Assembly: GCA_035935655.1 (NCBI GenBank)
Contig: DASYWW010000062.1
Span: 124,001-188,000, forward strand
Reading direction: 5' to 3'
DNA: 64,000 nt
DNA from: Candidatus Bathyarchaeia archaeon
Lineage (GTDB): Archaea > Thermoproteota > Bathyarchaeia > 40CM-2-53-6
Part shown: positions 20,822 through 29,199 of the stretch, in pieces
How the letters are laid out: every line of letters starts with the position of its first letter
How positions within the stretch are numbered: position 1 is the first letter of the stretch
The notes under the pieces: generated by a model
Databases searched by the model: none
The model's input: only the letters and a program-made list of their open reading frames with translations
What the model was told of the DNA's origin: nothing
Program-made: the position numbers and the translations under genes

Positions 20822-21060
20822 AGAGGTTCGGTCGTTGGAGCTTCTAGAGGCCGACGGTCTCGCAAAATCGTTCATCGTCAAGGAAGGCCCTATCTTCGGG
20901 AAAAGCCCCAAGACCGCCAACGCGCTGAACAGTGTCAGCTGACAGAGAAATACGCTCAAACAAAGGGTGTAATCGGGACCCACTAGGTTCGAGCGTGTCA
21001 CCGTCCCTTGATTCGCTCGGTTGAACTCGACAATTATTCCAGACGACAACAGTTGCTAGT

Positions 21061-21498
21061 GTGAAGAATTACCTGTTCAGCTGGAGACTATTCATCATCG
21101 TCGTAGTCGTTATCGCAGTTGCTGTCTTCACGGTTTACTCGGAATCTCAGCAGACGGTGGCTTGCCTTGCCTGCCCCGTCTCTTACACGGGGAAGGAGCA
21201 GATCGGTCTCAACTCCGTCCGGGTCAACTCAGCTACGAGTATAATTCTCAGCGTAACCAACATAGGCAGCTTGAACATCGGGCTCGCATCATACTACCTC
21301 AAAGACTCCAAGGGAGATATGTACTGGAACCAGACGTGGTTGGGCCCCACCCTGAGCCCCGGCGGATCCGTAACCGTGAATCTCTCGCTGACAGGAAATC
21401 TCACAGGACAGCCATTCCAGTTCCAGTCGGGACAGGCTTACACTGTCGAACTCGTAACTGCAAGGAACAACCCATTCACGTATACTTTCACAGCTTGA
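21061..21498 (+). CDS. Membrane-anchored secreted beta-sandwich protein
   Basis: This 145-residue protein has one N-terminal hydrophobic helix (residues about 9-27), preceded by a short basic stretch, then an extracellular-looking domain rich in Ser, Thr, Asn and Gly. The domain alternates strands such as SIILSVTNIGSLNIGLASYYLKD in the manner of archaeal flagellin- or pilin-associated beta sandwiches. Two cysteines (CLAC) lie just after the helix. The start is GTG at 21061. The function is unknown. Confidence 0.62.
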   Translation: MKNYLFSWRLFIIVVVVIAVAVFTVYSESQQTVACLACPVSYTGKEQIGLNSVRVNSATSIILSVTNIGSLNIGLASYYLKDSKGDMYWNQTWLGPTLSPGGSVTVNLSLTGNLTGQPFQFQSGQAYTVELVTARNNPFTYTFTA

Positions 21499-21827
21499 TC
21501 ACGTCTGCCGATAGCCCGCCAGTCTTTTCTCAACCGGGTCCCCTAAAAGGCAGCCACGCCTCACCAAGTAAACGAGCAGACGTCTTGCCAAGACCGTAAG
21601 TCCCTTACGAAAGTTACAGAATATCTCGATATCTCTCCGTCTATAAATTGCAAGAGGTCGAGATCCAGCGCCTGATCCTGGCCGAGCAAACAACGACTTG
21701 TACACCGTGTTCAAAACTGTAGTGTTATCCGTTTATCTCCCGTCATTGGAGTGTCCTTGAGAAGAGTGGAGTATTTCTCGGTCAGCCCTGGTCATCGTTC
21801 GCCGAGCGTGCTCCACGATCACCAAAT
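21499..21827. other. Non-coding gap with a TATA box but no gene seen
   Basis: About 330 bases without a convincing frame. A strong TATA element (CTATAAAT, near 21642-21649) would start transcription near 21670. No structured RNA could be drawn with confidence. Confidence 0.4.
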
Positions 21828-21835
21828 AGGAGGTG
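21828..21835 (+). promoter_or_regulatory. Near-perfect Shine-Dalgarno without a canonical start codon
   Basis: AGGAGGTG is followed by ATA-GTC-TCG-AAG-AAG, which begins an excellent signal peptide frame. A TGA closes that frame just before the ATA. Standard spacing would place initiation at the GTC (21840). Confidence 0.6.
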
Positions 21836-21839
21836 AATA

Positions 21840-22073
21840 GTCTCGAAGAAGATAGCGCTCCTCCTTTTGGTCGTAGCAGTCCTTCTCCTCCCAGCGGTTG
21901 CTCTTGGTCATGCAGCCTCTAACGCAGGCGGTTCAGACCATGCAAAGAGCAAGGGTCATCCCGACAGTGACAAGCATCAAGCAACAGACCATGAAGACTG
22001 TGACCATGACGATCGGGCCGCGGATGCAACCGGCCACGCTTGTGGAGTAGCTCACAAGAAAGCAGGGATGTAG
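21840..22073 (+). CDS. Small secreted His/Asp-rich protein
   Basis: The frame encodes a typical signal peptide (SKKIALLLLVVAV, then LLLPAVALGHA). The mature part of about 50 residues is rich in His, Asp and Lys and would bind divalent metals or carry charge; it has two Cys near its end. No ATG, GTG or TTG precedes the signal peptide, although a strong ribosome-binding site sits at the right place for a GTC codon at 21840. The first canonical codon, TTG at 21867, falls inside the hydrophobic core and is 31 bases from that site. The true start is therefore unclear. Confidence 0.5.
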   Translation, partial: VSKKIALLLLVVAVLLLPAVALGHAASNAGGSDHAKSKGHPDSDKHQATDHEDCDHDDRAADATGHACGVAHKKAGM

Positions 22074-22249
22074 CCTGGCCCTGAAGTCAAGGCTGCTCAT
22101 TCGCCCAATTTTTTTCAGTCAACACTAACTTATCGGACCACCATGCTCTTGGCTCCATAATTCTCGAAACCTTCTCTTCCCCCCCTGCCTGATCAAGAGG
22201 ACAACACCTAGCCCTGCCACAAACAGGACAAGCTTGTTACAACGCAAAC

Positions 22250-22265
22250 TTTCTTGAATAAGAAA
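22250..22265. promoter_or_regulatory. Palindrome in a conserved leader before the tautomerase gene
   Basis: TTTCTTGAATAAGAAA has six-base arms around GAAT and lies exactly 16 bases before the ATG at 22282. Its flanks (GCAAAC before, GGCCCATTTTC-ATGCC after) match the leader of the gene at 4398. This is probably a binding site shared by two unlinked genes. Confidence 0.6.
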
Positions 22266-22281
22266 CGCTTGGCCCATTTTC

Positions 22282-22461
22282 ATGCCGATTGTTAGAGTAC
22301 TAATGTATCCGGGAAGAACGCAACAGCAGAAGGACGATCTCGCCAAGGCAATCACGGACGCCGTAGAGAAGATCGCAAAGGCGCCACGGGACCAGACAAT
22401 AGTCGTCATACAGGAAGTCCCCAAAGAACAGTACTACGTTGCCGCAAACCGGGCAGCGTAA
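22282..22461 (+). CDS. 4-oxalocrotonate tautomerase family protein
   Basis: This 59-residue protein has the family's hallmark N-terminal proline directly after Met (M-P-I-V), which acts as the catalytic base in these enzymes. A GRT...K-D-x-L helix and a VVIQEVPKEQYYVA strand follow, typical of the beta-alpha-beta fold that assembles as hexamers. The substrate is unknown; members tautomerise keto/enol acids. It is fixed by the ATG at 22282, without which the catalytic proline would be lost. It carries the same palindromic leader as the AHSA1 gene at 4398. Confidence 0.85.
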   Translation: MPIVRVLMYPGRTQQQKDDLAKAITDAVEKIAKAPRDQTIVVIQEVPKEQYYVAANRAA

Positions 22462-22520
22462 GAAAAACACCATCGACAGAAAGGCTTGTTGACAATCAAC
22501 CCATGAAGAAAAGATATCCG

Positions 22521-22880
22521 CTAGACTGGAAATCTTAGACTAGGGGTTGTTGGATGCAGCCGATCCTCTACAACCCTCTCTTTTAGATAGACAAATCTAT
22601 CCGGCAAGGAATCATCGTAGTCGAAGTTCGGGGTCACGGAGAACTCCTTGTACAATTCTACTATTGTCCGGTAAGCGATGACTCGTGCACTCGTCCCTAA
22701 TCTCTCCATCAATGTCTTCACAACATCCTCAAATCTGCCAGGGATATCTTCCCGGCTGATTCCTTTCTTGTTTAGGAAGTCGTAGATCCAGTCGCGGATG
22801 GGTCCACCCATTCCCTGTAGGACACGGTCGAACCAGTAGTCGACAGCCAGTTGAAACCCAGACATCAAGTTAGAACGCAT
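22521..22880 (-). CDS. Unknown helical family protein, paralogue of the one at 28052
   Basis: This all-helical protein of about 119 residues contains a run shared with the protein at 28052: F-L/L-E-x-x-G-I, then R-F-D/E-D-V-V/I-x-x-L, S-A-x-V/I-x-x-Y-x-T, E-L-Y-K-E-Y/F-S. The two align without large gaps. An ATG at 22880 (or 22865) fits the paralogue; the frame could extend further upstream, but that part is basic, low in structure and probably untranslated. Both copies flank a GvpD-like ATPase gene. No function is known. Confidence 0.65.
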   Translation of the reverse strand: MRSNLMSGFQLAVDYWFDRVLQGMGGPIRDWIYDFLNKKGISREDIPGRFEDVVKTLMERLGTSARVIAYRTIVELYKEFSVTPNFDYDDSLPDRFVYLKERVVEDRLHPTTPSLRFPV

Positions 22881-23191
22881 GGATAGCCCAAACGCGTGAA
22901 TGAAACGGCGAGGCAACGACTGGATACGCATAGCGTTTCCAGCATTCGAGACAAACGGTAACCCCTTATTCCCTGCCGGAAGCCCGACCCTACCCCTACC
23001 CTTGTGACTCGAAGGGCCGTCCCTACTTCGAAGCCAAGCCCGACAGTCCTTTCTCCTTCCAGGTCGAAGGGTCTTGGTAAACCCCAACTTTCTAAGGTTG
23101 CATCTTGTCGGAACTTGTATCCAATACTATCCTTGTAGATAATAGGAAACCACCTAGTTTCTTCTTATACTCGTGCGTTTTTGTTTTTCTT
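22881..23191. other. Intergenic stretch between the helical-family gene and the RNA candidate
   Basis: About 310 bases. The part next to 22880 is the likely leader of the minus-strand gene and is C-rich on the plus strand. The end holds the TATA element (TTATAC, 23165-23170) of the structured RNA described next. Confidence 0.4.
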
Positions 23192-23296
23192 ACGGGCCCT
23201 CCGAGGTATTAACCTGATGACCACCCAAGAGACCCTTCGGGGTCCTCTTGGTTCGGGTTTTGCCGGAGGGTCCGTTCGAATTCCGAGCGCTTTTTT
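23192..23296 (+). ncRNA. Structured RNA candidate with own promoter and T-run
   Basis: A 12-bp helix closes the element: 23192-23203 pairs with 23264-23275, including one G-U pair. Inside are a small hairpin (AGGT-ATTA-ACCT, 23204-23215) and a long hairpin (23225-23251) with 11 pairs, one bulge and a C-UUCG-G tetraloop. That tetraloop favours the plus strand. A TATA element at 23165-23170 is centred about 25 bases before 23192, so transcription should start at the first base of the closing helix. Six T residues at 23291-23296 could end it. No known RNA family was recognised. Confidence 0.65.
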
Positions 23297-23925
23297 CAAT
23301 GGTGAACGAGCTCGAGATCCCTAGTAGCATCCTCAGTTCGAAAGAGTCCGGGGAGACGTCGTTTCAAGACTCTGTGTTTAGTTGTCGGCGGAGGTTCGAA
23401 CGGTCTTACCTATCGGGCCTTTATGTCTACGTCCTTAAAGTCATTCATTGACGTCCAAAGAGTGGGGGAACAGAACACTTCCCGATGGAAGTAGTTGGAT
23501 CAGAAACGACCGCGAAAATCCGTTTCGGAGAAGAGAACGAATTTTCATAATAAGAGAAGATCAGAGCGAAGAAGATCGTTCGTTTCACGCTAGACTCGGG
23601 ACGAGAGGAAAGACTTGACGTTTCCATCGTTCGATTTGAACGACCGGTTTTTTTCATATTAAGACTTGTGGTACAATCAATCCAGCAGAGTTTGCTGTGG
23701 ATAGATGCGGCCGGCTGGTGATATCTCTGGTGAATTGTAATTAATGTTCGCATCGAGCATCTTATATTTCAAGTAGTCGTGTTCGTAGTTGGTCATCAGG
23801 TTGAAAACCAAAAAATTGGAAGCGGTACCACTGCAACTTCGCCTAATGGTTTGTGATTCTAGCGTACCTCTCTCCTGCCTCTTCCTGCGGCTGGGAGCAC
23901 GCGCATAACGGATTCGTCCCATCAC
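23297..23925. other. Long gap after the RNA candidate
   Basis: About 630 bases without a credible protein. Local inverted repeats exist, for example AGAGTC (23343-23348) with GACTCT (23368-23373), but no overall fold could be drawn. The end carries the probable promoter and N-terminal region of the phosphoesterase. Confidence 0.4.
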
Positions 23926-26238
23926 ATCAAGATCGCGACTCGAACAATTATCCTCTGCTCGGTAATCATTCTCGGACTCGGCTACACAACATCTCATTTC
24001 TCCGCCACTATTCAGACCCCGGCCACTTCCAACGCATCGACTGCATTCAACTATGTTGTCGTCATCCTCATGGAAAACCATGGCCTCAGCGACATTGTCG
24101 GCCCCGCAACCTACATGACGACCCTGGCAAACACCTACGGTCTCGCGACTCAATACACCGCGGTAAGCCATCCATCAGAACCAAACTACCTTGCACTGGT
24201 CGGCGGTGACACCTTCGGAATTAGCAGCGACGGTGTCTGTTGCTGGACGATTAACTCGCCGAACATAGTCGATCGGATCGAAAACGCCGGGCTGACCTGG
24301 CAAGCATGGGCTGAAGATGCTTCGGGTTCCGGAACTTGCCGCTTCAGCCCACCACGGTCGGCAGACCACTTTGGTTTCCTGGAGTTCAGCGATATCAACA
24401 CCACTTCTCGTTGCGGTAATTTCCACTCGACGCAGTCATCTTCTGATTCAGAGTTTGTCAATGCTCTCAACAACAGCCCCTCGAACCTCATGTGGCTGAC
24501 CCCTAACGACTGCAACAACATGCACGACTGCCCCGTCACCACAGGAGACACTTACCTTGCTGGTCTGGTACCCAAAATATTGACGAGCAACCTCTTCACG
24601 ACAGAGAAAGCCGCCCTCTTTATCGTCTTCGACGAGGGTAACAAGGGTTCTCCTAACGACTACGTCTACAGCCTGTGGGCAGGCTCAGCCGTCAAGAAAG
24701 CTTACCAATCCAGTAGCCAGTACAGTCACTACTCTTTCCTCCGCACAATCGAAGCGAACTGGAACCTTCCTTCGCTTACGTCTAATGACGCGAACGCGCC
24801 AGCCATGACAGAGTTCTTCAGCACTCCAATGTCCAGTCAATTACAGGCTAGTTTCACCGAGACACCAAAGGCACCGAATGTTGGCATGTCAGTCACCTTC
24901 ACGGCAATTGCCTCGGGAGGTAATTCGCCTTACACCTACTCGTGGACCTATGGCGACAACGGGACGGGGTCAGGGATCTCCAGCACTCACGCATATGGAT
25001 CAATCGGAAATAGAACAGTGACCCTAACGGTCCAAGACTCGTCCTCCCCCTCCCAGACCACCAACAGCTCCCAAATCGTTACCGTGTCAAGCGGATTGCC
25101 ATCCGCTGGGGTTGACTTCGGAACCTGCATGCCCCTCCCCAAAGGTTGGAGGTGCGGCAATACTAACGGTTTGACAGGTAGTTCCGCCACTATCGTAAAT
25201 GGCGTACTCGAGACTCGGGAGTCTAATCCAAACGTTGGAAACGACAGCAGATATTACTATTCAACTGGCCAAAAAGGTACATTCCCTTGGTCACCTTGTC
25301 AAGCGCCCGCCAACGGGACACTGCCTACCAACATTACAACAGTGAGCACTACATTTACTCCACTGGTCTTTCTGCCCTCAGGATCGTACCGATACCACCT
25401 CTACGTCGCCCTTTACTACTGGCTACCAAAAGGCCCGGTTGTTGCAGGATCCTCTTCGTATCGCTGCCTCGACACGCAGGTCAGAGTTCAGAACATCAAC
25501 GGCACGTTCAGTCGCGTCGGGACAACTGCAACCTACAATCCCGGCGATTCGTTCGGCTGGAGCAACGTTACTGTTGGTGAGGTAGCTATGGGTCAAACAT
25601 ACAGCCTTACGGCGAATGTTGAAAACCAGTGCCGACAAGACCTCATGGCTTGGGGTTTGGACCCGAGCACTCCATGCCAACTCGCCGGGATTGAAATCGG
25701 CACCGAAGGCTATCAGTTCCGAGAGCTCGACGTGAACTGGCTCAAGGTTAACCTAGTAGCAACCGCCCAACCAGGAACGCTGGCTGCTGCGATCAGCGCA
25801 ACACCCAATAAGCCACACGCCGGAGAGACCATGTCTTTCTCCGGCTCGGCAAGCGGCGGGACCGGCCCATACACGTACTCTTGGAGTTTTGGAGATGAAG
25901 CAACAGCGTTTGGCCCCACCGTGAACCATGCGTATCCGAGATCTGGAGACTTCAGAATAGCGTTGTTTGTAACAGACAGCTCTGCAATAACCCAGACATA
26001 CACCGCCACGCAAGTCGTACATGTGAACTCGTTCTGCGTCCCGGCCAAATTCATCAGGGCGGACGTGAACCATGATGGACAAGTCGACTCGGCCGACGTC
26101 GCCATAGTGGCTCAGGCGTTTCAATCGACACCGTCATCAGCCAACTGGAACCCCTCAGCGGATGTCAACCAAGACGGGATAGTGGATATTGTTGACGTGG
26201 CCATCATAGCATTCACCTTTGGTCAGTCAGTATGCTAA
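23926..26238 (+). CDS. Secreted phosphoesterase with PKD domains and dockerin
   Basis: The catalytic part (from about 24046) is of the phospholipase C/acid phosphatase type, with VVVILMENHGLSDI followed by HPSEPNYLALVGG. An alpha/beta core ends near 24840. A PKD domain, a beta-sandwich of about 200 residues, and a second PKD domain (TYSWSFGDE) follow. The end is a type I dockerin with two calcium loops (DVNHDGQVDSADVA and DVNQDGIVDIVDVA). A signal peptide precedes the catalytic domain in frame (MKIATRTII-like). It lacks ATG, GTG or TTG; ATC 23926 is the best start, while ATG 24070 falls inside the catalytic motif. It probably hydrolyses phosphomonoesters or phospholipids outside the cell. Confidence 0.8.
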   Translation: MKIATRTIILCSVIILGLGYTTSHFSATIQTPATSNASTAFNYVVVILMENHGLSDIVGPATYMTTLANTYGLATQYTAVSHPSEPNYLALVGGDTFGISSDGVCCWTINSPNIVDRIENAGLTWQAWAEDASGSGTCRFSPPRSADHFGFLEFSDINTTSRCGNFHSTQSSSDSEFVNALNNSPSNLMWLTPNDCNNMHDCPVTTGDTYLAGLVPKILTSNLFTTEKAALFIVFDEGNKGSPNDYVYSLWAGSAVKKAYQSSSQYSHYSFLRTIEANWNLPSLTSNDANAPAMTEFFSTPMSSQLQASFTETPKAPNVGMSVTFTAIASGGNSPYTYSWTYGDNGTGSGISSTHAYGSIGNRTVTLTVQDSSSPSQTTNSSQIVTVSSGLPSAGVDFGTCMPLPKGWRCGNTNGLTGSSATIVNGVLETRESNPNVGNDSRYYYSTGQKGTFPWSPCQAPANGTLPTNITTVSTTFTPLVFLPSGSYRYHLYVALYYWLPKGPVVAGSSSYRCLDTQVRVQNINGTFSRVGTTATYNPGDSFGWSNVTVGEVAMGQTYSLTANVENQCRQDLMAWGLDPSTPCQLAGIEIGTEGYQFRELDVNWLKVNLVATAQPGTLAAAISATPNKPHAGETMSFSGSASGGTGPYTYSWSFGDEATAFGPTVNHAYPRSGDFRIALFVTDSSAITQTYTATQVVHVNSFCVPAKFIRADVNHDGQVDSADVAIVAQAFQSTPSSANWNPSADVNQDGIVDIVDVAIIAFTFGQSVC

Positions 26239-26297
26239 GCTAGAGTCCAACTGTCGTACTCAACCCCGCTCTTTCTTTGGATTTCCTCTAGCCATAG

Positions 26298-27785
26298 TTA
26301 GACGATCTCCGTCAACGATAATCTAGGGTAGCCGCGTTCAAAGCCGAATTTTACACCGTGAACGTTTGTAATCGGTTTGACCCCATAGATCAAGAGTGAC
26401 CCGTTGACGGTCTGCATTTTCAAGTGGTAGTCAACCGCTCTTAGAAGCTCTTCCCTCAGACTTGTCGGTCGTGAGATCACGCCAACGCTAAGTGCACCTG
26501 AATCACGGATGCCTGCCCCTATTTCGGCAATCCCTGGAAGTCCTAGAGTTTCGCCGTAAAGTTGTACTGCCTTATCGAAATCGTATTTCAGTACTCTCGC
26601 GGATGAGATAGCTCCAAGCTCATTCCATGCATTGTTGAACGCGGCCAGGTCTCCTGTTAGATTGCCTGAAAGCTTCACCCTCCATTTTTCGTCGCGAAGA
26701 ACTTGGTTGAACTCTGCTATCCGGACCCGCTCGTTTAGCACTGTATCTCCAACGTATGTTTTCAGAGACTCAGCTATGTTCTGTGAACTGAATATGCTGT
26801 AGGGAATGATGAAAGCAGTTCCTCCCTGGTTGATGAAATTCGCTGCCATTATGTCGAGGAGAAGCTTCACGGAGTGAGGCGAGACGGTGCTGTTGACATC
26901 CAACAAAAGAGAAGAACCCTTTCTGACTCCACCGTCCAACAAAGCATCAAGATCGGGACTACCGGTCGAGTAGGAGGACTCGGAGTTACGCACGGGGCTG
27001 AGTAGCTTCGGATTGACCGATCTATCAATGTCAAAGTGAAATTCAACCCGGGGTAAGAGAGTGAATTTGCCCCCATCGAGCGAGAACAGCGCCCCTTGTG
27101 TATGGAGCCTGAACCCGCGAAGCTTGTTGACAACTACGCTCCTCACAGTTCTATCTTCTAGGTCGGATAGCGCCAGTGTAACGATGCCGTCCACGAGATA
27201 GTCGAGCTTAGGAGAGTTTACGCTTTCGCTCACGATCACTGCGCTTAGTTTGCTCTCATCCAGATCTTGAAAGATCGCTGTTTCCATTGCGTGACGTTCT
27301 TCCTCTGTCGCGTTGGCTACTGCTCCTTCCCAACTATCCACAACTATGATGCCCTTCTGTTTAGCCCGTTTCAATGCAATAATCCTGTCAACAATATTCG
27401 ATGCTCCTCCGTTTCGACTGTCTCCTCTCGTCCTAGTGGCTGTTGCCTGTCTTCGAGACATGGAATCGAGGACCTCACGAACCCCCGGGAAATGTCGCCG
27501 CAGCTTCGAGGACGAGACCCGACTTGATACGTACACCTTATTGGCAGAAATTGTGTGAGGACCGATGCGAGTTCCTTTCGCCTCATTGAGAAGTTCCAGG
27601 GCGAGAGTTGTCTTGCCAGTGCCCGGGGCCCCTTGAATGAGCAACACGTTTCCTGGCGATTCTAGAAATCTTGACATAAGGTCTAGAAGGTCGCTAGCCT
27701 TAGACTTCTCAGCCCCTATCTGTTCCGCCTCAACCTGAGGTTCTAGCGCGGTTTCGTCCTCGCCGGAGACACCTTCAGCCATCAT
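26298..27785 (-). CDS. GvpD/KaiC-like P-loop ATPase
   Basis: This 495-residue RecA-superfamily protein has an acidic N-terminus and Walker A GAPGTGKT at residues 52-59. The VYVSSRVSSSKLRRHFPGV stretch is characteristic of GvpD-like proteins, and Walker B is GIIVVDSWEG near residue 147. The second half repeats a degenerate RecA-like fold (SYSTGSPDLDALLDGGVRKGSSLLLD) without a full P-loop. GvpD proteins regulate gas vesicle genes in haloarchaea, but no gas vesicle genes are seen here. Helical-family genes lie on both sides, one of them divergent 266 bases away. Confidence 0.82.
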   Translation of the reverse strand: MMAEGVSGEDETALEPQVEAEQIGAEKSKASDLLDLMSRFLESPGNVLLIQGAPGTGKTTLALELLNEAKGTRIGPHTISANKVYVSSRVSSSKLRRHFPGVREVLDSMSRRQATATRTRGDSRNGGASNIVDRIIALKRAKQKGIIVVDSWEGAVANATEEERHAMETAIFQDLDESKLSAVIVSESVNSPKLDYLVDGIVTLALSDLEDRTVRSVVVNKLRGFRLHTQGALFSLDGGKFTLLPRVEFHFDIDRSVNPKLLSPVRNSESSYSTGSPDLDALLDGGVRKGSSLLLDVNSTVSPHSVKLLLDIMAANFINQGGTAFIIPYSIFSSQNIAESLKTYVGDTVLNERVRIAEFNQVLRDEKWRVKLSGNLTGDLAAFNNAWNELGAISSARVLKYDFDKAVQLYGETLGLPGIAEIGAGIRDSGALSVGVISRPTSLREELLRAVDYHLKMQTVNGSLLIYGVKPITNVHGVKFGFERGYPRLSLTEIV

Positions 27786-28051
27786 GATATTCTAGCATCA
27801 CGAGGACTCTTCTCTGAGGACAAGCATTGTGTAACTCGACAAGGCACTCCAAGGTTGAATACAATAGAACACAATGAACATCTTACGGAATGTATCGAGA
27901 TGCAAGAAACTTAGATGAAAAAGCTCAAACACAGTAGAGAAAAAATGGTATCCAGTTTCGCGCTCCGATCTTGAAGAGGTCCCTCTACTCAGAGAGCGTC
28001 TCCATTTTGGCGAGTCACCTGTTACACTCGGCTTAACCTGCGCCCGAGAAT

Positions 28052-28438
28052 ATGACAACCTTCAGAGAGGTTGTCTTTGTGCGGACGACGATAGTAGAAA
28101 CGTTTCAGTCGACGATGAACCAATGTTTCACTATCGTTGTTGAGGAAATACTTGGCCGGAGCGTCAGGGAGGAGATCTTCCAGTTACTGGAGAGGAACGG
28201 GATCGAACCGTTGGAAATCTCCAGCAGGTTCGACGACGTAATCGAGGTTCTCACAAGGGTCTTCGGAATCAGTGCCCAGATTCTTGTCTACAAGACGGTG
28301 ACGGAACTCTACAAAGAGTATTCATTGCGGACTGGCTTCGCTTTCGGCGAATCTATGAAAGATCAAGTTGCCCAGCTACGGGAAAAGGTAGCGAACGACC
28401 TTCTGAAGCCTAGGCACTATACCAGCATCGACCCTTGA
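28052..28438 (+). CDS. Unknown helical family protein, paralogue of the one at 22521
   Basis: This protein of up to 128 residues is helical from the second methionine onward. Shared positions with the other copy include ERNGIEP...SRFDDVIEVL, FGISAQILVYKTVTELYKEYS, and a final LREKVANDLLKP. ATG 28052 gives 21 extra residues; ATG 28115 matches the start of the paralogue better. It is transcribed away from the GvpD-like ATPase. No motif for catalysis or metal binding is visible, so it may be an interaction module. Confidence 0.68.
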   Translation: MTTFREVVFVRTTIVETFQSTMNQCFTIVVEEILGRSVREEIFQLLERNGIEPLEISSRFDDVIEVLTRVFGISAQILVYKTVTELYKEYSLRTGFAFGESMKDQVAQLREKVANDLLKPRHYTSIDP

Positions 28439-28605
28439 TGTAAGTCAGCCGGAGAAAGTCTCGATAGAACACTCGCAGAATGACCCTTGTGGAATCTCGG
28501 ACAGGGGACTTGTCAGAATTAGTCTATAAATAGCGCGAGGGAAGAGTGCTTTGTAATGTTAGTTCTTTTCGAGAAAGAGGGAAGTTTCCTCTGAAGGCCA
28601 GTTTG

Positions 28606-29199
28606 ATGCAACCAGGCAAAAGGCGAAGAATAATGAAACCTGAGAAAAGGAATTTAGCGCAAAATCGCCGGCAACAGTCCTTGAAGACCAAGAAGATTGT
28701 GAATGCAGTTGACTCTGTTCTAGGACCCGGCAAGACCGCTCCTAATTTTTCTCTTAACAGTACACCGGATCAGAAGGTGTCCCTGAACGATTTCCGGGGA
28801 CAACCTGTTATCCTTGCTTTCTACCCTGCAGACTGGAGTCCCGTCTGCACCGACCAGTTATCATTGTACGCAATGGTGATGCCGGAATTCAAGAAGTTCA
28901 ACGCAGAGCTCCTCGCCATATCCGTAGACAATATCTGGTCCCACCTCGCTTTCGCAAAAGACCGCAAGCTCAACTTCCCGGTGCTAGCAGATTTCGAGCC
29001 GAAGGGAGTCGTCTCCAGAAAATATGGTGCCTTCAAAGAGAAGATCGGCGAGTCCGCTCGAGCACTCTTCGTAATCGATGAAAAGGGAATCATCAGATGG
29101 AGCCATCTCTCCCCTGACGGGATCAATCCCGGAGCTGACGGAATTCTTTCAGCCTTAGAGAATCTGAACAAGACCCAGGCGACTGGGGAAAGAAGCTGA
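28606..29199 (+). CDS. Peroxiredoxin (AhpC/TSA family)
   Basis: This roughly 197-residue protein has an extended basic N-terminus, then the thioredoxin-like peroxiredoxin domain. The active-site region is AFYPADWSPVCTDQ, with the peroxidatic Cys in P-V-C-T. Conserved DIWSHLAFAKD-like and FVIDEKGIIRW strands follow. It should reduce hydroperoxides in the cytoplasm. A TATA box (TATAAATA, 28525-28532) predicts transcription from about 28555, so the ATG at 28606 or 28633 is preferred over upstream starts. The DsbA-like thiol gene begins nine bases after it, suggesting an operon for thiol redox control. Confidence 0.88.
   Translation: MQPGKRRRIMKPEKRNLAQNRRQQSLKTKKIVNAVDSVLGPGKTAPNFSLNSTPDQKVSLNDFRGQPVILAFYPADWSPVCTDQLSLYAMVMPEFKKFNAELLAISVDNIWSHLAFAKDRKLNFPVLADFEPKGVVSRKYGAFKEKIGESARALFVIDEKGIIRWSHLSPDGINPGADGILSALENLNKTQATGERS

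Follow-up and report, generated by a model that had tools for sequence, protein, structure and literature searches.

What does the small structured RNA gene upstream of a secreted phosphoesterase gene in this archaeal DNA do? The window, i.e., the whole stretch of 64,000 nucleotides (nt) that was analyzed (G000:C62:124001-188000), comes from a 2.5-Mb soil Bathyarchaeia genome, and an earlier note on its sequence had proposed that the + strand carries a self-contained gene for a structured RNA. Our results support this gene and suggest that its product, an RNA of at least 84 nt, probably regulates the adjacent gene for a secreted phosphoesterase/PKD protein as a linked antisense RNA. It appears to belong to a family, hitherto undescribed, of antisense RNAs that control secreted surface proteins. 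The putative RNA gene, its structure, its promoter spacing, the complementarity between its core and a target site, and a matched change in both partners are all read directly from the sequences; the regulatory role is the interpretation that we weigh here.

An RNA gene and its complementary leader

The RNA gene is single-copy in the window's genome and consists of three stacked helices, P1-P2-P3, behind a TATA box. Its features are as follows.

23165..23170, + strand: TATA box of the RNA gene, TTATAC, centred about 24.5 nt 5' of 23192; close relatives keep TTCTTATACTCGTGCGTTTTT
23192..23275, + strand: structured RNA gene, at least 84 nt, scoring 72.5 bits with the covariance model; homologues in 12 other genomes
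23192..23203, + strand: 5' strand of P1, partner 23264-23275; compensatory changes in 9 of 13 modelled pairs
23211..23217, + strand: 5' strand of P2, AACCUGA, partner UCGGGUU at 23253-23259; 7 base pairs (bp) in the consensus structure
23218..23225, + strand: J2/3, asymmetric internal loop UGACCACC, unpaired in the shared structure
23226..23250, + strand: P3 hairpin with a genus-invariant base, CAAGAG/CUCUUG; tip and loop vary with compensation
23211..23223, + strand: antisense core AACCUGAUGACCA, formed by the P2 5' strand and unpaired J2/3; invariant in nearly all members

The core is perfectly complementary to positions 23790-23802, between the RNA and the phosphoesterase gene. This site, which the earlier note had passed over, is suggestive of function and lies in a leader with the following features.

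23762..23767, + strand: TATA box of the phosphoesterase leader, TTATAT; a TATA-like box is centred 24-28 nt before the site in 13 of 13 leaders
23790..23802, + strand: target site UGGUCAUCAGGUU, where the mRNA is predicted to begin; layout shared by all genomes that have the RNA
23789..23908, + strand: possible upstream frame, with a TTG start within the target site and a TAA stop overlapping the main-gene start
23893..23897, + strand: GGGAG, candidate ribosome-binding site, within a conserved element 95-110 nt 3' of the site
23905..26238, + strand: target gene, secreted phosphoesterase with PKD and dockerin domains (reading frame; Pfam PF04185, PF18911, PF00801, PF00404)

A 181-base query of the RNA region matched 17 places in 13 of 61 genomes, including the window's own; the other 12 genomes comprise 11 of genus g1 and one of g2, and a divergent copy was found in an integrated element. 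Some genomes carry two RNA copies on opposite strands, about 7.8 kb apart. In a structure-aware alignment, many pair types occur in the outer helix P1 (ACGGGCCCUCCG/CGGAGGGUCCGU; 11 Watson-Crick pairs and one G-U pair in the window), and two-sided changes were counted in 10 pairs (28 cells), a result matched by none of 500 shuffles and sharply reduced when the alignment was slid. This alignment was built with the fold in mind, which biases it toward that fold; compensatory changes are visible already in the raw sequences. Folding of the + strand gave -52.3 kcal/mol versus -35.2 +/- 3.5 kcal/mol for dinucleotide shuffles (z of -4.9; 0 of 200), and the reverse strand of the locus gave a z of -3.4. 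G-U cells exceed A-C cells on the + strand (37 vs. 6 in the structure-aware alignment), and a TATA-like box lies 22-29 nt 5' of P1 in 15 of 15 aligned RNA genes; this excess and this spacing identify the + strand as the right one. The TATA spacing in 15 genes, together with the covarying structure, marks an independent RNA gene with its own predicted promoter.

Every element listed in the earlier note was found at its place, and its central claim of a stand-alone RNA gene is borne out by the homologues with compensatory changes (the test that it had named beforehand as able to refute it), by the near-constant TATA spacing, and by the lack of an Rfam match. The TATA element at 23165-23170 and the 12-bp helix 23192-23203/23264-23275, which is the covarying outer helix, both stand. 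A proposed AGGT/ACCT hairpin does not: it is unconserved and absent from the minimum free energy fold, and the ACCU is part of the 7-bp P2 instead. A hairpin at 23225-23251 with a UUCG loop is present, but relatives have UUAG, UUGC, CCAAA, UCAAC and other loops. The strand that had been chosen from this loop was correct, although the grounds for it are the G-U excess and the scores of model R1, in which each + copy lies far above its own reverse strand (72.5 vs. 21 bits in the window). Six T residues at 23291-23296 are likewise present, but as a terminator they are not conserved: no relative has such a run just 3' of the helix. Finally, the claim that no protein frame explains the RNA held, since an overlapping open reading frame (23248-23451) lacks an ATG counterpart in the relative G017.

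In every RNA-phosphoesterase context, TGGTCATCAGGTT occurs upstream of the start on the phosphoesterase sense strand, with the wobble-compatible TGGTCATCGGGTT in G003 and G008. Complementarity to the site extends over 12-13 nt in 13 of 13 RNA-bearing genomes. In G002, RNA and leader are found on separate contigs, for which the assembly is a possible reason, a run of N being present near the RNA. Across 21 genomes, a TATA box plus site occurs at 12 of these leaders and at only five other places, and no such leader was recognized in six genomes of the genus without the RNA, where matches in G005 and G012 look like chance or coding sequence. Exact 13-mers at G017:C33:133547 and G018:C42:6640 lack the leader layout and were rejected as targets, being taken as chance. 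Among 20 control phosphoesterase genes without the RNA, from four RNA-bearing genomes, none had the site, and nearly all had an ATG, GTG or TTG start.

The RNA-linked leaders carry a GGGAG element 95-110 nt after the site (UGGAG in two of them), and in most a CTG codon overlaps a TGA stop (CTGA) at the start of the signal peptide. The start region has ATA/ACG in the window and GTA/ACG in G017, with no ATG, GTG or TTG before the signal peptide. Main genes that begin with CTG (ATA/ACG in the window) over a stop codon possibly point to an unusual translation start in these archaea. The upstream frame would end in residues such as LRLGDNSS, LKLGEGDY, LRPGDAHN or LVLGDREN.

The phosphoesterase (PF04185) protein of the window has two PKD domains and a dockerin, and in nearly every context the RNA has a large secreted protein from a single BLAST family next to it or close by. 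With only 3-12 PF04185 matches per genome, chance adjacency to the RNA is unlikely, though same-genus loci are not independent. Between the RNA gene and the site, which do not overlap, there are about 160-600 nt. The phosphoesterase gene of the window and of G017 lies 3' of the RNA on the same strand, an arrangement that would also be seen if the RNA were a riboswitch or other cis-acting leader of that gene. At the other leader-matched sites, however, the genes are divergent and the RNA is transcribed away from the phosphoesterase gene; beyond the RNA, the mRNA is provided with a separate TATA box and leader, and Rfam yielded no riboswitch family. We therefore give a riboswitch almost no credence.

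A divergent RNA-leader pair on an integrated element

Model R1 detected one distant homologue (G010:C67:20936-21020, 39.6 bits), which has the same three-helix form and wholly different pairs in P3 (CGUCGC/GCGACG). Its core reads GCCUGAGUACCA and its 18-position stretch UCUCAAGCCUGAGUACCA. When contig C67 was searched for the complement of this core, a single place besides the RNA was found, at ~29025-29042 (TTTATATCG...CTTGGTACTCAGGCATGAGA). This leader carries UGGUACUCAGGC, within UGGUACUCAGGCAUGAGA, and is complementary to the divergent RNA at 17 of 18 positions. A TATA box precedes the site by 26 nt, a GGGAGA...AACTGA element lies downstream, and a CTG-start open frame for a Pfam Phage_integrase protein follows. 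Relative to the family, three two-sided changes keep the pairing (A-U to G-C, U-A to G-C and G-C to U-A), and the only core substitution on the RNA side, an A to G found in G008 and G010, still allows a wobble pair. This matched change is the strongest single evidence for the predicted base pairing. Altogether, complementarity in 13 genomes and three two-sided changes indicate a conserved, extended match between the RNA and its putative target mRNA.

The pair lies on an ~8.2-kb integrated element (L127, C67 ~20845-29100) inside an HD-domain gene. The element also encodes a MarR-like regulator and unknown small genes, and its integrase start is non-AUG. The 17/18 direct repeat near both of its ends could mean that the element integrates into the RNA gene, with the repeat as its attL/attR attachment core. 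The unoccupied site of G008 contradicts this: when the two loci are compared, the crossover maps to a shared 8-bp core, TTGATGAA, in the HD-domain gene (C67 ~20845-20852 and ~29093-29100). Because this crossover is outside both the RNA and the site, the repeat is not the attachment core, and we hold that reading to be next to impossible. In the circular form of the element, the RNA and the integrase leader would be divergent and ~160 bp apart, as at most phosphoesterase loci. Relatives of the integrase on G010:C58 and C70 have no RNA nearby, and none were found in viral contigs.

The same 12-13-mer might also be a DNA site, either an operator for both genes or an arm-type site of the integrase, with RNA complementarity as a by-product. 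Consistent with this, the divergent loci have direct repeats ~200-250 bp apart, each 25-45 bp 3' of a TATA box, and in the circular form of the C67 element two copies would flank the attachment site. On the other hand, one repeat copy always occupies the same place in the covarying RNA, half of it in an unpaired internal loop, and substitutions in core and site keep pairing in the RNA sense, including the A to G wobble. In the window and G017 the repeats are inverted and ~580 nt apart, unlike those at other loci, and the phosphoesterase loci have no integrase. We consider a DNA site unlikely.

Proposed mechanism and known antisense systems

In the antisense reading, the unpaired J2/3 segment (UGACCA) would act as a toehold at which the 5' end of the mRNA begins to pair, and pairing would then invade helix P2. 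The product would be an RNA-RNA duplex of 12-13 bp over the 5' terminus of the message, or of 17 out of 18 positions in the divergent pair. The weak non-AUG start of the main gene (CTG/ACG) would overlap the stop of the possible short upstream frame, which itself would begin within the target site or close to it, about 100 nt 5' of the main start. Because the candidate ribosome site is also ~100 nt away, direct occlusion is unlikely; the frame is open in 12 of 13 leaders, which suggests coupled translation. Pairing would somewhat more probably repress, by keeping ribosomes from entering at the 5' end and so preventing the coupled translation of the main gene. Within the same model it may instead protect the mRNA 5' end from decay and so activate the gene, which we regard as the less probable outcome, though a serious one.

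Several observations weigh against antisense regulation. The upstream frame has neither third-position excess nor synonymous bias, so that coding is only possible, and folding of the leader with and without the site blocked gave no consistent change in the accessibility of the ribosome site. The loci, being related within one genus, amount to about seven independent contexts, and the matched change comes from one divergent pair. Nor does target pairing account for why GGUUCGGGUU and CAAGAG/CUCUUG are conserved. Energies computed for RNA-RNA duplexes of the whole molecules tell nothing either way, as they ignore self-structure.

Conservation of GGUUCGGG and of the P3 base beyond the needs of target pairing would be expected if the RNA had another function, e.g., protein binding or scaffolding, and its leader linkage and complementarity were incidental. 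Against this, every RNA-bearing genome has, at a constant position, a complement that is perfect or nearly so, and the divergent pair shows a matched change; we think such a function improbable, slightly more so than a DNA site. A box C/D guide RNA, as recognized by paired C (RUGAUGA) and D (CUGA) boxes that form a kink-turn, was considered and rejected: the core has CUGAUGA, but the opposite strand, GGUUCGGG, has no CUGA, and the divergent copy has CUGAGUA.

The mechanism proposed for the antisense RNA is shared with CopA/tap/repA of plasmid R1 and with hok/sok, in which an antisense RNA blocks a leader frame to which translation of the main gene is coupled. CopA and sok are fully overlapping cis-antisense RNAs, whereas the RNA here does not overlap its target and the leader frame is only a candidate. 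In IS10/Tn10, RNA-OUT is complementary over its first 35 nt to the mRNA of the transposase, and ribosomes are kept from binding when the two pair (PMC5006887). As in RNA-OUT/RNA-IN, a small, stably folded antisense RNA here faces the start region of a mobility-enzyme mRNA, since one putative target is a recombinase gene with its site at the predicted mRNA 5' end. Unlike in IS10, the RNA here has a gene apart from that of its target, matches it over only 12-13 nt and would pair ~100 nt from the ribosome site; it comes from an archaeon, and surface-protein genes make up most of its targets. Among archaeal small RNAs (sRNAs), two sources (PMC3510493, PMC6560208) describe Methanosarcina mazei sRNA162 and Haloferax volcanii sRNA132 as intergenic RNAs that act on mRNAs, with a phosphate-transporter operon as the putative target of sRNA132. 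These sRNAs of methanogens and haloarchaea differ, by their descriptions, from the present RNA in that the latter is linked with its target leader, the two being conserved together.

Regulatory RNAs are poorly known outside cultured methanogens and haloarchaea, and here an RNA family with a testable target is predicted from sequence alone in an abundant, mostly uncultured archaeal class. The C67 pair constitutes a natural compensatory mutant pair. As the putative sRNA is tied both to apparently exchanged surface-protein bodies and to a mobile-element integrase, the origin and spread of such a module are testable.

Apparent exchange of coding bodies, distribution and neighbouring features

In a tree of 30 phosphoesterase regions, the RNA-linked ones did not form a clade: at least three changes are forced and five occur in the tree, although the number of exchanges is uncertain, given short rows and one very long branch. 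G006 and G014 have a common locus, RNA and near-identical leader, and the linked protein of G014 groups with its own unlinked paralogue and not with that of G006. Similarly, G003 and G007 have nearly the same leader and different regions after the signal peptide. These two patterns indicate that RNA and leader are conserved apart from the coding body; constancy of RNA and leader beside phosphoesterases that are not one clade is expected of a cargo-independent control module. We tentatively suggest, at a little under even chances, a portable two-part cassette (antisense RNA plus matched-site, non-AUG leader) that is placed before unrelated genes, whose pairs diverge to new matching specificities and whose coding body can be swapped. 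Its cargo, on the same tentative footing, would be exchangeable giant phosphoesterase/PKD surface proteins and the integrase of the integrated element. Loci L054 (5676-13640; G014:C6) and L053 (G006:C33), from genomes that are close relatives, have the same locus, leader and RNAs and different N-terminal phosphoesterase domains, and are possibly an expression site for exchangeable surface proteins.

The RNA family appears young and narrow. Models R1 and R2, run over samples of the order, the class (201 genomes) and the phylum (398 genomes), the large samples under stricter filters, found it only in genus g1 and one g2 genome; a match in G026, outside these, was weak (22.4 bits) and unconvincing on inspection. 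Viral contigs had no match to the exact core pattern. Of the 14 stretches picked up there by a relaxed pattern, none had the fold, and the best scored 22 bits and was without the upper part of P1. Phage and plasmid records had no RNA match. Rfam gave no match at gathering score in the window, none at E<=10 around the RNA and none at E<=1 in loci L111, L051, L054 and L143; thus no known Rfam family includes this predicted RNA. An open-literature search found no account of it, which is weak evidence for absence. No tRNA or tmRNA genes were found in the window.

Two paralogous proteins of ~130 amino acids, encoded at 22521-22931 (- strand) and 28052-28438 (+ strand), flank the RNA-phosphoesterase region; the first has no Pfam match, and the paralogue family is also found near the RNA in G017. 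Finally, a second conserved non-coding block lies 3' of the RNA, at 23550-23735 (+ strand), and is present in G017 and, as an equivalent, at the 'a' RNA loci of G013, G001, G006 and G014. It has no clearly conserved frame and no Rfam match. Its sequence, GCGAAGAAGATCGTTCG...GATATTAAGACTTGTGG...GGATAGA...CCGGTGATACC, includes a TATA-like ATATTAAG and a possible hairpin, and the block may be another RNA gene.
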